A stretch of DNA of 54,178 bases from Bacillota bacterium (GTDB lineage Bacteria > Bacillota > Sulfobacillia > JAJYWN01). How positions within the stretch are numbered: the first letter of the stretch is position 1; each line of letters opens with the position of its first letter. The position numbers and the translations under genes are program-made. The notes under the pieces are model-generated. The model did no database searches and had not been told where the DNA came from. It saw only the letters and a program-made list of their open reading frames with translations. This document shows, piece after piece, positions 839 to 52,818 of this stretch. The stretch lies in assembly GCA_021791495.1 (NCBI GenBank), contig JAJYWN010000028.1, positions 1 to 54,178 on the forward strand. Direction: 5' to 3'.

Positions 839-852
839 CGAACATCCGTTCG
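839..852. promoter_or_regulatory. SOS (LexA) box 1
   Basis: CGAACATCCGTTCG matches the Bacillus-type SOS core CGAAC-N4-GTTCG at all ten fixed positions. It lies between the -10 of the yneA-like promoter and that gene's ribosome-binding site, where bound LexA would block early transcription. Confidence 0.85.
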
Positions 853-860
853 CTAACGTC

Positions 861-889
861 ATGATATCGAACGTCTGTTCGTAAGTCAA
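861..889 (-). promoter_or_regulatory. Sigma-A promoter of the yneA-like gene
   Basis: On the minus strand TTGACT (884-889) is separated by exactly 17 bases from TATCAT (861-866). The spacer contains a whole SOS box, the classic arrangement for LexA repression. Confidence 0.75.
868..881. promoter_or_regulatory. SOS (LexA) box 2
   Basis: CGAACGTCTGTTCG carries both perfect arms of the Bacillus SOS consensus and sits inside the spacer of the yneA-like promoter. Confidence 0.88.
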
Positions 890-910
890 GGGCTCGGCCA
901 AAGAAATACC

Positions 911-924
911 GAACAGGTGTTTGC
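911..924. promoter_or_regulatory. SOS (LexA) box 3
   Basis: CGAACAGGTGTTTG has one arm perfect and the other with a single change, and its centre fits the RNRY pattern. It overlaps the -35 of the lexA promoter, so it is the likely autoregulatory operator. Confidence 0.82.
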
Positions 925-983: not shown

Positions 984-1592
984 ATGGCGAGCCGCCTGAC
1001 CGGTCGTCAAAGGGAGATTCTGGACTATATCAGGAAGGAGACCCAATCACGCGGGTATCCACCATCGGTCCGGGAGATTGGTCAAGCCATCGGGCTGTCC
1101 TCCAGTTCGACGGTCCACGGCCACCTGCAGCGCCTCGAAGAGAAAGGGTTCATCCGGCGCGATCCGACGAAACCGCGGGCCATCGAAGTCACCGGTGATA
1201 GCAGTGGCCGCCAGAAGCGGATCATCCAGGTCCCTCTTGTCGGAAGGGTTACGGCCGGACAGCCTATTCTGGCCGTGGAGAACATCGAGGATTCTTTTCC
1301 CCTACCCTACGACATGGTCCGCACGGAAGACTCATTCCTTCTCCGCGTGGAAGGGGAAAGCATGATCAATGCCGGCATCTACGACGGGGACTTCGTCATC
1401 GTCCGCCGGCAGGATTCCGCCCACAACGGCGAGATCATCGTGGCCCTCATTGGTGACGAGGCCACCGTGAAACGCTTCTTTAGGGAAACGGACCACGTGC
1501 GTCTCCAGCCGGAAAACGACTCGATGGAGCCCATTCTGGTCCGCGACGTCAAGGTCCTCGGTAAGGTCGTGGGGTTGCTGCGCCGCTACTGA
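984..1592 (+). CDS. lexA: LexA, SOS repressor
   Basis: Self-cleaving repressor of the SOS regulon. The 202-aa length is typical. Residues 1-65 form the winged helix-turn-helix that reads the SOS box. The hinge holds the Ala91-Gly92 cleavage pair (VTAGQPI). The C-terminal peptidase fold has nucleophile Ser126 ([14 protein letters not shown]) and general-base Lys163 (EATVKRFF). The start is the ATG behind GGAGGTG. It is divergent from the yneA-like gene and shares a control region with three SOS boxes, one over its own -35. Its 3' end overlaps the convergent DUF2933 gene by 7 bases. Cleavage stimulated by RecA filaments is family knowledge; recA itself lies at about 40 kb in this window. Confidence 0.98.
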
Positions 1593-39912: not shown

Positions 39913-40947
39913 CTATTGCACCGACGACTCCTCTTCGGTAGCCGCGGTCGCGCGCACGGTACCGAGACTGAGCGCCTCGCGCACCTTGGCCTCGATCTCC
40001 TTGGCGACGTTCGGGTTCTGTTTCAGGAAATCGCGAGTATTCTCGCGCCCCTGCCCCAGGCGAGTGTCGCCGTAGGAGTACCAGGCGCCCATCTTACTGA
40101 TGATGCTCAGTTCAGTGGCGATATCGACGATACAGCCTTCCTTCGAGATCCCTTCGCCGTAGATGATGTCGAACTCTGCCTGTTTGAAGGGCGGAGCCAC
40201 CTTGTTCTTCACGACCTTCACGCGGACACGCATACCCACATTGTCCTGGCCCACCTTCAAGCTTTCGGCCTTGCGGACTTCCAGGCGGACGGAGGCATAG
40301 AACTTCAGGGCGCGGCCGCCGGGTGTCGTTTCGGGGTTGCCGAACATCACCCCGACCTTCTCACGGAGCTGGTTAATGAAAACAGCTACGGTATGGGACT
40401 TGCTGATGGCGCCGGTGAGTTTCCGGAGAGCCTGGGACATGAGGCGCGCCTGCAGCCCCACGAAGGAATCGCCCATTTCCCCTTCGATTTCCGCCCGCGG
40501 CACCAAGGCCGCCACGGAGTCCACCACCACCACGTCCACCGCATTGCTGCGCACCAGCGCCTCGGCGATCTCCAGGGCCTGTTCGCCGGTGTCCGGCTGC
40601 GAGATGAGCAGGTTGTCTACGTCCACGCCGAGGTTCTTCGCGTAGGCAGGGTCCAGGGCGTGCTCGGCGTCGATGAAAGCCGCCACGCCGCCGGCGCGTT
40701 GGGCCTCGGCGATGATGTGCAGGGCCACGGTGGTCTTTCCGGAGGCCTCCGGACCGTAGATCTCCACCACCCGCCCCCGGGGGATGCCTCCCACACCCAA
40801 GGCCACGTCCAGGGATAGCGCCCCGGTGGTGATAACGTCCACCGTCATCTTCGCCGAGGCTTCTCCCAGTTTCATGATGGACCCCTTGCCGAACTGTTTT
40901 TCGATCTGCGCCAAGGCCATTTCCAGAGCCTTTTTCTTATCTGACAC
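39913..40947 (-). CDS. recA: RecA recombinase
   Basis: DNA-strand-exchange ATPase and co-protease for LexA. The 344-aa product has Walker [10 protein letters not shown] (65-73), the L1/L2 DNA-binding loops ([40 protein letters not shown]), and a short acidic C-terminus (ATEEESSVQ). The GTG at 40947 has GGGGGGAGG upstream; a longer frame would start inside the promoter. The promoter carries a degenerate SOS box at the transcription start. recX follows by 17 bases. Confidence 0.98.
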
Positions 40948-41011
40948 TGCGGGCCTCCCCCCGGCTATAACGCCGACTGCCATCTTTCGCGTTCTGGAAG
41001 GATTTTCCTGT

Positions 41012-41025
41012 CGAATTACGTTTCT
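41012..41025. promoter_or_regulatory. Degenerate SOS box at the recA promoter
   Basis: On the minus strand AGAAACGTAATTCG matches the SOS core CGAAC-N4-GTTCG at seven of ten fixed positions. It lies immediately downstream of the -10, at the likely transcription start. Position supports it; sequence alone would not. Confidence 0.4.
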
Positions 41026-41055
41026 ATGATAACCTGCCGGCTCGTCCACGGTCAA
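41026..41055 (-). promoter_or_regulatory. recA promoter
   Basis: On the minus strand TTGACC (41050-41055), an 18-base spacer and TATCAT (41026-41031), about 80 bases before the recA GTG. The -10 hexamer is the same as in the yneA-like promoter. Confidence 0.7.
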
Positions 41056-47094: not shown

Positions 47095-48228
47095 TCACGC
47101 GGAAAGAACAGCCCCGGATATCACTCGTCTGTAGAATTCCTCGTAGGCCGGGACCACCTTCGCCGTGGCGAAACGGTCTTCCGCCAGCCGTCGCGCTTCC
47201 TCACCCATCCGCCGTCGGAGCCCGTCGTCGGACAGCACCAGCGCCGCCGCCCGGGCCATCCCCTGGACGTCGTCGGGCGGGAACAGGAAGCCGGTGCGCC
47301 CGTTTTCGACCAGTTCGGGGATGCCGCCCACATCGGAGGCGACTACCGGAACGCCGCAGGCCATCGCTTCCAGTGCAGCCAGACCGAAGCTCTCCTTCGA
47401 GGACGGCAGGAGGAACAGGTCGGCCGCGGCCAGTACGGGCGCCACGCGGTCCTGCGAGCCAAGAAAGACCAACCGGTCGGCCACGCCCTCCGCCCGGGCC
47501 GCCCGGCGGAGCAAGTCTATGTCTGGCCCGTCCCCCACCAAGACGAGGCGGCTCGGCACCTGCCGCGCCACCGTCGCGAAGACTTTCGCCACGCGGTCCA
47601 CACCCTTGACCGTCCGGAAATTAGACATGTGCATTAGGATACGTTCGCCGGGCTGTGCCCAGAGACCGCGCAGCTCACGGGAGTCACGCGGGGCAAACTC
47701 GGCCACATCCACGAAATTCCGGATGACGGTGATGTCCCGCGTCACGGCGAAGGTGTCCAAAGTCTCCTGGCGGAGGCTGGCCGAGACCGCCGTCACGCCG
47801 TCGCTGCGGTTGATGCAGAAGGACACCACGCCGGTGAAGGAGGGGTCGCTTCCCACCAGGGTAATGTCGGTACCGTGGAGGGTCGTGACGACCTTGAAGG
47901 CGCCGTCCGACATCTCGCGCGCCAGGAAGGCCGAGGCCGCGTGGGGGATGGCGTAATGCACGTGGAGGACATCGAGCTTCTCGGTGCGGGCCACTTCGGC
48001 CATCTTGTTCGAGAGGGCCAAGAGGTACGGCGGGTACTTGAAGAGCGGGTAAGTCGGGACATCCACCTCGTGGTAGAAGATGTTGGCGTGGTATTCGCGC
48101 AGGCGAAAAGGCGTATCGTAGCTTATAAAATGAACGTGATGGCCACGCCGGGCCAGTTCTTTCCCCAGTTCCGTGGCGATGACGCCGCTTCCCCCGTGAG
48201 TGGGGTAGCAAGTGATGCCAATGTTCAA
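47095..48228 (-). CDS. bshA: BshA, N-acetyl-glucosaminyl L-malate synthase
   Basis: GT4 glycosyltransferase that makes GlcNAc-malate, the first step in bacillithiol synthesis. With the TTG start at 48228, which overlaps the bshB1 stop as TTGA, it is 377 aa, the same length as Bacillus BshA. The GT-B fold shows CYPTHGGSGVIATELGKELA at the N-terminus, HVHYAIPHAASAFLA, NFVDVAEF, SNFRTVKGVDR, and the donor-site PSSKESFGLAALEAMACGVPV-type region with Glu residues. An apparent longer frame reads back through bshB1 in another phase and is not real. BshC, the last enzyme, is not in the window. Confidence 0.95.
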   Translation of the reverse strand: MNIGITCYPTHGGSGVIATELGKELARRGHHVHFISYDTPFRLREYHANIFYHEVDVPTYPLFKYPPYLLALSNKMAEVARTEKLDVLHVHYAIPHAASAFLAREMSDGAFKVVTTLHGTDITLVGSDPSFTGVVSFCINRSDGVTAVSASLRQETLDTFAVTRDITVIRNFVDVAEFAPRDSRELRGLWAQPGERILMHMSNFRTVKGVDRVAKVFATVARQVPSRLVLVGDGPDIDLLRRAARAEGVADRLVFLGSQDRVAPVLAAADLFLLPSSKESFGLAALEAMACGVPVVASDVGGIPELVENGRTGFLFPPDDVQGMARAAALVLSDDGLRRRMGEEARRLAEDRFATAKVVPAYEEFYRRVISGAVLSA

Positions 48229-48992
48229 TGTCGTTTCCCTCTCGGACTCTCCACGTTTCCCTTTTCCCAAATCTCCTCGATATCCCTCACCAGGCGCGGC
48301 CCCTGCGCCAGTAATCCCTCGGCCCGTCCCACCCCGGCCAGGGCGCCGAAATAGGCGTCGCGGGCCTCCACCATCTGGAGGAACGATCCCGTGTTCAAGG
48401 GGGTGGGCCGGGTCCCCCGGCCACCGGCGAATTGGGTCCCGTAACAACGGAGAGCACGCATCTTCCGCTCCGAGGCGGCCGTCACGTCGACCAGAATGTC
48501 CGGCCGGGCCTGGCTGTGGATGAGGTAGAACCGGACGGCCGGAGTGCGGTGGGCCGGGAAGACCTTGGGAGTGACCACGTCGCCGCCGTCGGCGCCGTCC
48601 GGCGGCTCGAACCGTGCCAACCCGGCCAGTCCCACTCCTCTCAGGCAAAGAGCGGAGGCCGCCTGGTGATCGGCGTGCCGGTCTTCTCCGTGCGGTATCA
48701 GGGCCAGGTCCGGCCGGAATTCCCGCACGGCGCGGGCTACCGCCGCCGCCTGCTCGGGGCAGTCTACCAGCCCCTGATCGGGTAGCCCCAGACACGTCCG
48801 GCGCACCCCAAGGATGCCCGCCGCTTCCCTGGCTTCGCGGGCACGGTCCTCCGGTGAGCCGTTGCTGGCCATTTCCCCGCGGGACAGGTCGCAGATGAGG
48901 ACTTCGTGGCCGCGACCGGCAGCCAGAGCCATGAGACCCCCGGCCCCTATCTCAGCGTCGTCCGGATGGGGCCCGAAGACTAGAATGCGCAT
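48225..48992 (-). CDS. bshB1: BshB1, bacillithiol biosynthesis deacetylase
   Basis: Zinc-dependent LmbE/PIG-L deacetylase that removes acetyl from GlcNAc-malate to give GlcN-malate. The 255-aa product has the zinc motif HPDD (9-12, FGPHPDDAEIGAGG) and the second site HADHQ (106-110). The fingerprint SRGEMASNGSPEDRAREA is typical of BshB1. The start is the ATG at 48992 with AAGGTGA upstream. It is coupled to bshA by overlap. The pair implies bacillithiol as a major thiol. Confidence 0.95.
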   Translation of the reverse strand: MRILVFGPHPDDAEIGAGGLMALAAGRGHEVLICDLSRGEMASNGSPEDRAREAREAAGILGVRRTCLGLPDQGLVDCPEQAAAVARAVREFRPDLALIPHGEDRHADHQAASALCLRGVGLAGLARFEPPDGADGGDVVTPKVFPAHRTPAVRFYLIHSQARPDILVDVTAASERKMRALRCYGTQFAGGRGTRPTPLNTGSFLQMVEARDAYFGALAGVGRAEGLLAQGPRLVRDIEEIWEKGNVESPRGKRH

Positions 48993-49083: not shown

Positions 49084-49097
49084 AGAACAAGTGTTCG
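49084..49097. promoter_or_regulatory. SOS (LexA) box upstream of mrfAB
   Basis: AGAACAAGTGTTCG matches the SOS core CGAAC-N4-GTTCG at nine of ten fixed positions, and its centre AAGT fits RNRY. It lies 33 bases before the mrfA start in the gap divergent from bshB1, where LexA could block mrfAB transcription. No other gene lies close on the plus strand. Confidence 0.72.
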
Positions 49098-49129
49098 GTT
49101 CATATCCCCGCGGGGACAGGAGGCCTTCC

Positions 49130-51397
49130 GTGAACCTAGCACTGCTCCTCGAAACCTTGATGGATGAACCCCGTTTCCGGTCGTGTGTCGAGGCGCGCGT
49201 CTCGTTACCGGCGCGTCCGGCTTCCTATGCTCCTTTCCCGGAGTGGGTCGACCCAAGGTTGAAGGACGCCCTGGCGGCTCGGGGTATCACCCAACTCTAC
49301 TCTCACCAGGCCGAGGCGGTGGAAATGGCCCACGCGTGCCGCCACGTCGTGGTGGTCACTCCCACGGCGTCCGGGAAAACCTTGACCTATAACCTGCCGG
49401 TGCTCTCCCGTATCCTGGAGAATCCGGATGCGCGGGCCCTTTACCTCTTCCCCACGAAAGCCCTGTCCCAGGACCAGGTGGCTGAGGTCCACGAGCTGAT
49501 CACGGCCGTGGGTGCCGATATCAAGACTTTCACCTACGACGGGGACACCCCCCAGTCCGCCCGCAAGGCCATCCGCTCCGCCGGTCACATCGTGGTGACG
49601 AACCCGGACATGCTACACACGGGTATTCTGCCCCACCACACCAAGTGGGTCAAGCTGTTCGAGAACCTGGAGACCGTCGTCATCGATGAACTCCATCACT
49701 ACCGGGGTGTTTTCGGGAGCCACGTGGCGAACGTCATCCGCCGTTTGAAGCGCATCTGCGCTTTCTACGGCTCCCACCCCGCTTTCATCCTGTGCTCCGC
49801 CACCATCGCGAACCCCGGAGAGCTGGCTTCCCGTTTGACCGGCGAGGACGTGACAGTGGTGGACCGGAACGGCGCGCCGTCGGGTCCCAAGGAGTTTGTC
49901 TTCTATAACCCGCCGGTGGTTAATAAGGAGCTGGGCATCCGGCGCGGTTCCGTCCTGGAAGCGCGCGACGTGGCCACCCGCTTCATCAAGAACGACATCC
50001 GCACCATCGTCTTCGCCCGCTCACGCGTGACTACCGAGGTGCTCCTCACCTACTTGAAAGAAGCGGTCTCCGAGTTCCCCGGCCTGCCCGAGAAGATCCG
50101 CGGCTACCGCGGAGGTTACTTGCCGCTGGAGAGGCGGGAGATCGAGCGTGGGCTGCGCCAGGGACGCCTCCTCGGTGTGGTCAGCACCGACGCGCTGGAG
50201 CTGGGCGTGGATATCGGAACGTTGCAGGCCTGCGTCATGGTGGGCTACCCGGGGTCGGTGGCCAGCACCTGGCAACAGGCTGGACGGGCCGGGCGGCGTC
50301 AGGACCTCTCTTGCGCCGTCATGGTCGGTTCCTCGGCCCCCTTAGACCAGTACATCATGAGTCATCCGGACTACTTCTTCGGCCGGGCTCCCGAACACGG
50401 CCTGATCAACCCAGATAACCTCTACATCCTGCTGTCCCATCTGAAATGTGCCGCCTTCGAATTGCCTTTTGCCGCCGATGAGACTTTCGCCGGCGGAAGC
50501 ACCCCGGAGACCCTGGCTTTCCTGGCCGAGCAGGGCATTCTCCACCGGTCGGGCGATAAGTACCACTGGGCCGACCAGTCCTTCCCCGCCGAGGCCATCA
50601 GCCTGCGGTCGGCGGCGAACGAGAACTTCATTATTATTGACATCACGGATGAGGGGCGCCGGAGGGTCATCGGCGAGGTGGACCGCTTTGCGGCTCCCAT
50701 GCTAGTCCACCAGGAGGCCATCTACATTCACGGTGGGCAACAATACCACGTCGACCTGCTAGACTATAAGGAGAAGAAGGCCTACGTGAAAGAGGTGAAG
50801 GTGGACTACTACACCGACGCCAACCTAGCCGTGGACCTAAAAGTCCTGGACGTTTTCGAGTCGAAGGAAGGAGCCACACTGAAACAGGGCCTGGGTGAGG
50901 TTCTGGTCACCGCGGTGGTCACTATGTTCAAGAAGATCAAGCTCCACACTCATGAGAACATCGGTTGGGGCCGTCTGCACTACCCCGAGGAACAGGTGCA
51001 GACCGCCGCGACCTGGTTCTCCGTACCTGCCGCGGTGGCGGCGAAGTTCAGCCCCTCGGAGATGGAGACGGCTCTGGCCGGCGTCGCGAACGTCCTGGCT
51101 AACGTCGCTCCTCTGCTGCTCCTGTGCGACCCGCGGGACCTTCACGTCGTCCCCCAGGTCCGCGCTCCCTTCACCGAGGAGCCCACCGTCTATTTCCACG
51201 ACCACTATCCCGGCGGCATCGGGCTGGCTGAGAAGCTTTATGAAGTCCTTCCCCGAGTGTGGAAGGCGGCGGAGGAACTGGTGGACGGGTGTAAGTGCGA
51301 TGCAGGCTGCCCCTCTTGCGTTGGCCCCGCCACGGAGCTGGGACCGAAGGCCAAGGGGCTGGTGCGGCGACTCTTAGCGGAGGCGAGACCGGCATGA
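49130..51397 (+). CDS. mrfA: MrfA (YprA), DNA-repair helicase
   Basis: Superfamily 2 helicase of the mitomycin repair pathway, a UvrA-independent excision system known from Bacillus. The 755-aa product has a Q-motif-like YSHQAEAV (57-64), Walker A TPTASGKT (77-84), DELH (186-189), the motif III-like SATIANPGEL and the motif VI QQAGRAGRR. A DUF1998-type C-terminal region ends in a four-cysteine cluster CKCDAGCPSC (721-730), which binds zinc in the family. The GTG at 49130 follows GGAGG. It overlaps mrfB by 4 bases and has a likely SOS box upstream. Confidence 0.93.
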   Translation: MNLALLLETLMDEPRFRSCVEARVSLPARPASYAPFPEWVDPRLKDALAARGITQLYSHQAEAVEMAHACRHVVVVTPTASGKTLTYNLPVLSRILENPDARALYLFPTKALSQDQVAEVHELITAVGADIKTFTYDGDTPQSARKAIRSAGHIVVTNPDMLHTGILPHHTKWVKLFENLETVVIDELHHYRGVFGSHVANVIRRLKRICAFYGSHPAFILCSATIANPGELASRLTGEDVTVVDRNGAPSGPKEFVFYNPPVVNKELGIRRGSVLEARDVATRFIKNDIRTIVFARSRVTTEVLLTYLKEAVSEFPGLPEKIRGYRGGYLPLERREIERGLRQGRLLGVVSTDALELGVDIGTLQACVMVGYPGSVASTWQQAGRAGRRQDLSCAVMVGSSAPLDQYIMSHPDYFFGRAPEHGLINPDNLYILLSHLKCAAFELPFAADETFAGGSTPETLAFLAEQGILHRSGDKYHWADQSFPAEAISLRSAANENFIIIDITDEGRRRVIGEVDRFAAPMLVHQEAIYIHGGQQYHVDLLDYKEKKAYVKEVKVDYYTDANLAVDLKVLDVFESKEGATLKQGLGEVLVTAVVTMFKKIKLHTHENIGWGRLHYPEEQVQTAATWFSVPAAVAAKFSPSEMETALAGVANVLANVAPLLLLCDPRDLHVVPQVRAPFTEEPTVYFHDHYPGGIGLAEKLYEVLPRVWKAAEELVDGCKCDAGCPSCVGPATELGPKAKGLVRRLLAEARPA

Positions 51398-52818
51398 CGG
51401 AGGCGGAGGCGGAGGCGGACGGAATCCGCTCCCGTGACCTAGCCCAGAAACTGGCGGCCCTGCGGCGCATCATCGCGGAGAAGGAGGCGGCGGGCCGGCC
51501 GTGCCCGGGTGCTGGGCCGGCGACAGTGCCCGCTCCCGGTAGCGCCGGCCCGTCTGTCCGGCAGCCCCACTCCCGGCCCATCCAGCGCCCCGCCGTTCGC
51601 CCCATCGAGACATGCCTCCCCGGAGAGGTCCGCCAGACGGCCGAAGGGCGGTTTTTCCTCCACGAGCGTGCCTTCCCGCTTGAACACCAACACGGGCGTA
51701 GGCCGTTGGCTGGGGCCCTCACTTTCCGGCCGGAGGAGGGCGGGCGCCTCTCCCCCGGCGGCACGGACCTCGGCTTTGACCCGGTCCACGCGGTCTTTCT
51801 CGACACGGAAACTACCGGGCTGGCTACCACCTCTGGGACGCTGGCTTTTCTCATCGGCACGGGCTTCTTCTCCGGAAGCACTTTCGTCGTGCGACAGTAC
51901 TTCGTCCCCGACTTCGCCGATGAGGAGGCCTGCCTGCGGGCGCTTCGTGAAGACCTGGGCCGGTTTGACGCCGTGGTCACTTTTAACGGCCGGTCCTTCG
52001 ACCTCCCGCTCTTGGAGGCCCGTTACATCACCTCTCGCCTGCGCCCACCCCTGGCCGGCGCCACCCACTTGGACCTTTTGCCGGCCTGCCGCCGCCTCTT
52101 CCGGCAACGCATCGGCGGCTGCCGCCTGGCCGAACTGGAGAACGCCGTCCTGGGCTTTTACCGGGAGGATGATATCCCCGGCGAGTTGATCCCTCAGATG
52201 TACTTCGACTACCTCCGCTCGGGCGACGCCGCCCCCCTGGCCGGAGTCTTCGAACATAACCGCCACGACATCCTGGCCATGGCCGCCCTACTGGCCGAGG
52301 TTCAGGCGGTGGTCCAGGGGTGTCGCCGCGGCGAAGGGCACCCCATCGACCTGTTCTCCCTGGCGTGTGCCGACGAGCGGGAAGGCCGGCTGGAGGACAG
52401 CCGTGCCTTGTACGAACGGGCACTGGCTCTGGAACTGCCACCGGCCCAAGACCTGGTGGCCAGGAAGCGCCTCTCGCTGCTCTACAAGAGAATGGGCCTG
52501 CACGACCACGCCGCCGACCTCTGGCGGCAGATGTGCGACCAGTCCACGTGCCTTTCGCTGTTTCCCTTCATTGAGCTGGCCAAGGACCTGGAACACCGGC
52601 ATCGCGATCCGGCGGCCGCACGCCAGGTGGTTCTGGCGGCTTTGTCACGGTCGCGTGCCTTGGACCAGGTGTTCTCCCCAAATACCGTCACCTCCGCCGA
52701 CCTGGAAAAGCGCCTGCGGCGCCTGGAGCGGAAAGCTGGCGTTTCGCCCGCCCCCGCCCCCGCCCCCGCCCTTTCGCCCGCCCCTCCTCCCGCCCTGTCC
52801 TCAGAAACCCGCAGGTAA
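51394..52818 (+). CDS. mrfB: MrfB (YprB), DEDD exonuclease partner of MrfA
   Basis: Metal-dependent exonuclease of the RNase H-like DEDD class. The 474-aa product has an N-terminal acidic helix and a Pro-rich spacer. The nuclease domain (about 130-305) has FLDTETTGL (Asp137, Glu139), TFNGRSFD (Asp203) and EHNRHDILAM (Asp292). A helical TPR-like region follows (about 310-440; DEREGRLEDSRALYERALAL). The C-terminus is a Pro/Ala repeat with no fold. It is coupled to mrfA by ATGA overlap. In Bacillus the pair repairs mitomycin adducts. Confidence 0.93.
   Translation: MTEAEAEADGIRSRDLAQKLAALRRIIAEKEAAGRPCPGAGPATVPAPGSAGPSVRQPHSRPIQRPAVRPIETCLPGEVRQTAEGRFFLHERAFPLEHQHGRRPLAGALTFRPEEGGRLSPGGTDLGFDPVHAVFLDTETTGLATTSGTLAFLIGTGFFSGSTFVVRQYFVPDFADEEACLRALREDLGRFDAVVTFNGRSFDLPLLEARYITSRLRPPLAGATHLDLLPACRRLFRQRIGGCRLAELENAVLGFYREDDIPGELIPQMYFDYLRSGDAAPLAGVFEHNRHDILAMAALLAEVQAVVQGCRRGEGHPIDLFSLACADEREGRLEDSRALYERALALELPPAQDLVARKRLSLLYKRMGLHDHAADLWRQMCDQSTCLSLFPFIELAKDLEHRHRDPAAARQVVLAALSRSRALDQVFSPNTVTSADLEKRLRRLERKAGVSPAPAPAPALSPAPPPALSSETRR

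Follow-up and report, generated by a model that had tools for sequence, protein, structure and literature searches.

The site AGAACAAGTGTTCG, located at 49084..49097 on the forward strand upstream of mrfA, was predicted to be a LexA operator (SOS box) that represses mrfAB and is freed on DNA damage, and we put the probability of this reading at about 0.88. The window, that is, the whole stretch of DNA analysed, comprised 54,178 nucleotides. The site matched CGAAC-N4-GTTCG at nine of ten positions; the GAAC-N4-GTTC core was complete (8/8), and the centre, AAGT, had the form RNRY. The sequence-only reading had described a near-perfect SOS box with an RNRY centre at this place, and its sequence and coordinates were both correct. 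Thirty-two bases separated the end of the box from the GTG start codon of mrfA at 49130, which was closely preceded by ggagg. The longest open reading frame began at another GTG inside the box (49091); this start was rejected because the alignments with relatives began at 49130, with the consensus MNLxQ.

The mrfA gene (yprA; 49130..51397, forward strand) encoded an SF2 helicase comprising DEAD (PF00270), Helicase_C (PF00271), HRQ1 winged helix and C-terminal MrfA Zn-binding (PF09369) domains, and the three Pfam families given by accession all scored over the cut-off. The best PDB match of its product by phmmer was YprA of B. subtilis (6znp; 949 bits, E 1.2e-284, about 60% identity). It was followed by mrfB (yprB; 51394..52818, forward strand), which encoded an RNase_H_2 exonuclease (PF13482, 4.6e-36) with a weak TPR match. 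The two genes are orthologues of MrfA and MrfB, in line with the names given to them earlier. An MrfB-type DxETT motif was found after mrfA in 55 of the 63 named relatives with enough sequence. The start codon of mrfB overlapped the stop codon of mrfA (ATGA), so both genes should come under control.

The window also carried lexA (984..1592, forward strand), with the HTH and S24 peptidase domains identified by Pfam. The LexA sequence contained an Ala-Gly cleavage site (VTAGQ) and the Ser/Lys catalytic residues, as in self-cleaving LexA. Three LexA boxes on the forward strand belonged to this gene: CGAACATCCGTTCG (839..852) and CGAACGTCTGTTCG (868..881), both matching at 10/10 positions, and CGAACAGGTGTTTG (910..923), matching at 9/10. 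Boxes of 9/10 or better were also present before lexA in 26 of 29 other genomes of the class that were examined. The recA gene (39913-41055, minus strand) lay downstream of two genes, a cinA-type one and a short one, and no box of 8/10 or better was found directly upstream of it. An SOS organism without a box before recA is unusual.

In the window, 10 sites departed from CGAAC-N4-GTTCG at no more than one position; in the whole genome 218 did, vs. 139 for the reversed control pattern. A bare 9/10 match is therefore neither rare nor significant and was rejected as proof, and the case rests on conservation. A LexA matrix was built from the lexA-promoter boxes of other genomes of the class, which were picked by consensus match, and the boxes of the window were left out. 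When the 54-kb window was ranked with this matrix, the three lexA boxes came first and the mrfA box fourth, with 16.9 bits, and the next site in the window had 13.2 bits. When the window was shuffled 60 times by single bases, no site reached the 16.9 bits of the mrfA box.

The mrfA gene was found in 98 of 154 genomes of the class, and its upstream DNA was read for 90 of these, representing 38 families. A box of 9/10 or better occurred within 110 nt upstream of mrfA in 27 of the 90 genomes and 13 of the 38 families, vs. 0.35 genomes on average, and at most two, in dinucleotide shuffles. The matches piled up in the last 100 nt before mrfA, and the reversed motif had two matches in 600 nt. The sequence-only reading had named a lack of conservation before mrfA in relatives among the grounds for refutation, and in the face of these counts, together with the boxes found in Bacilli, its proposal survived. 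Under a broader criterion, in which perfect cores were counted and distances of up to 160 nt allowed, boxes were found in 33 genomes belonging to 17 families. The other 21 families had no box before mrfA even by this criterion; the cut-offs or wrong start codons may account for some of the missing boxes. The 5′ half-site was imperfect in most relatives, and for this reason the affinity of LexA for the mrfA boxes may be lower than for the lexA boxes.

In most of the relatives with a box, it was placed between a TTGAC-like −35 element and a −10-like hexamer (TAGAAT, TACAAT, or TAAAAT), both facing mrfA. The −35/−10 spacing around the box was 16–18 nt in the order-mates and in many families, and the −10-like hexamer started 15–17 nt after the start of the box in 56 of 81 distinct cases. 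At a position between −35 and −10, a repressor keeps RNA polymerase out. A consensus promoter scan of the DNA upstream of mrfA in the window found no promoter, and its own −35 and −10 elements were poor and degenerate. The candidate for a degenerate −10 was TCATAT (49100..49105, forward strand), which aligned with the TAGAAT/TACAAT that closely follows the box in the order-mates.

This lack of a consensus −35/−10 in the genome itself, along with the 218 genomic sites at the same mismatch level, would fit a site that no longer works here, whether as decayed regulation or as a chance match, whatever holds in the relatives. We consider this very unlikely, as the position and the core of the site agreed with those in three order-mates (GGAACGTACGTTCG, GGAACGCGTGTTCG, and AGAACGTACGTTCG, at −50 to −52 of mrfA), and its matrix score was the fourth best in the window. 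LexA control of mrfAB in this genome, as judged from sequence, is very likely. It was also considered whether the LexA operator serves the divergent gene for a PIG-L-type deacetylase (48225-48992, minus strand) instead of mrfA, as this gene has its start about 90 nt away from the box, at 48992, and the intergenic region is common to both. We give this arrangement hardly any credence, since the distance from the box to mrfA was kept in the relatives (mostly 35–60 nt) and the elements flanking the box faced mrfA.

Elsewhere in the phylum, mrfA was preceded by a box in several families, and the named genomes with such a box included Bacillus, Rossellomorea, Fictibacillus, Peribacillus, Neobacillus, Cohnella, Paenibacillus, and others. 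The box was mostly absent in this part of the phylum where the identity of MrfA was under about 48%. The boxes of Bacilli were mostly CGAAC-N4-ATTCG or ATTCT, directly followed by TAAAAT or TACAAT. The slightly different motif in Bacilli could point to another repressor with a similar palindrome acting on mrfA, which is scarcely credible because the Bacilli form is the recA box of B. subtilis read backwards and the lexA boxes of the window match its mrfA site. LexA-type boxes, CGAACATTTGTTCG and AGAATGTATGTTCG, also preceded mrfA in two Chloroflexota genomes (L288 and L265), and the link between mrfAB and LexA may thus reach beyond Bacillota. The proposal that a LexA site controls mrfA was therefore supported, at the level of sequence, by its conservation in the class, in many Bacilli and in the two Chloroflexota genomes.

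In a B. subtilis genome whose MrfA was 100% identical to the 6znp sequence, a weaker site, CAAACAAATATTCG, was found 31 nt before mrfA. Its other strand, CGAATATTTGTTTG, was among 18 fits to CGAAY-N4-GTTYG in that genome, and others of these preceded recA, lexA and uvrB (the genes being named from protein starts). A 17-nt run over CAAACAAATATTCG was invariant in 20 Bacillus genomes, and its flanks varied. The B. subtilis site may be weak, because both of its half-sites depart from the consensus.

Other boxes were observed in the genome under study. A perfect box within the extended palindrome GTAGCGAACACCAGTTCGCTAC (L006, C20:38792-38805) was located 23 nt before a gene for an AlkZ-like DNA glycosylase (PF06224, a family with crosslink-repair enzymes among its members). 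No box was seen before this gene in 13 relatives of the class, which as a gene-level control indicated that upstream boxes are not generic. Another perfect box (L003, C7:73166-73179) preceded the gene of an N6/N4 DNA methyltransferase by 113 nt. Other likely SOS genes were a Y-family polymerase gene (IMS domain), which had two boxes, and two genes of the DinB superfamily that were closely preceded by boxes (L136, L014, and L142 on C77, C62, and C4). Perfect SOS-like palindromes, CGAACACGTGTTCG and CGAACACACGTTCG, with one flank in common, occurred at L010-L013 and L015 (C44, C51, C60, C61, and C73), mostly just before IS200-type Y1 transposase genes; they may represent either an element hairpin or a site that responds to LexA. 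The perfect pattern matches were not accepted as a list of the regulon, since at least four adjoined IS200-type transposase genes and others preceded TnpB-like genes. Many perfect matches elsewhere in the genome are at transposon genes, and the pattern alone misleads.

We infer LexA binding, repression and RecA-dependent induction at mrfAB, which would proceed as follows. In the undamaged cell, a LexA dimer on the site would cover the stretch from −35 to −10 and keep RNA polymerase off the mrfAB promoter. Once RecA is loaded on single-stranded DNA after damage, LexA would undergo self-cleavage and the operator would be freed. The overlapping mrfA-mrfB operon would then be transcribed, and this would supply the helicase and the 3′–5′ exonuclease of the MrfAB excision pathway.

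The best reading of these sequence comparisons is that mrfAB is a widely conserved operon of the LexA regulon. To judge by the spread of the boxes alone, LexA control of mrfAB is probably old in Bacillota. We also lean, with less assurance than for the site itself, towards the wider view that damage-inducible control of MrfAB by LexA is old in Bacillota and valid in B. subtilis, and that mitomycin excision belongs to the core SOS response of the phylum instead of being a separate constitutive system. Alongside UvrABC, MrfAB forms a second excision pathway, one known from damage by mitomycin C. Under LexA control of MrfAB, both excision systems would be raised through one alarm, and such control would also suggest that MrfAB handles the lesions of ordinary SOS induction and not just those of one antibiotic. 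The B. subtilis site would allow this control to be tested directly in a model organism.

A literature search combining LexA with MrfA or YprA found no statement linking them; the primary B. subtilis SOS regulon paper (Au 2005) and a key MrfAB paper (Burby and Simmons 2019) lay outside its reach. The LexA operator is well known as a kind, and mrfAB appears to be a new member, with an earlier report being possible. Compared with the LexA/SOS regulon of Bacillota (B. subtilis-type box; recA, lexA, and uvrB), the system described here was alike in the operator motif, its promoter placement in relatives, the cleavable-type LexA and the lexA boxes in the window, and it differed in that no paper in the literature searched, which left out Au 2005, listed mrfAB among the SOS operons. 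The published accounts consulted on the MrfAB (YprAB) mitomycin excision pathway of B. subtilis cover activity and structure and not regulation, and LexA or SOS is nowhere mentioned in those on MrfB and on the YprA family (PMC11194089, PMC12458937). The system of the window shares with that pathway an orthologous helicase and RNase_H_2 exonuclease in one operon.
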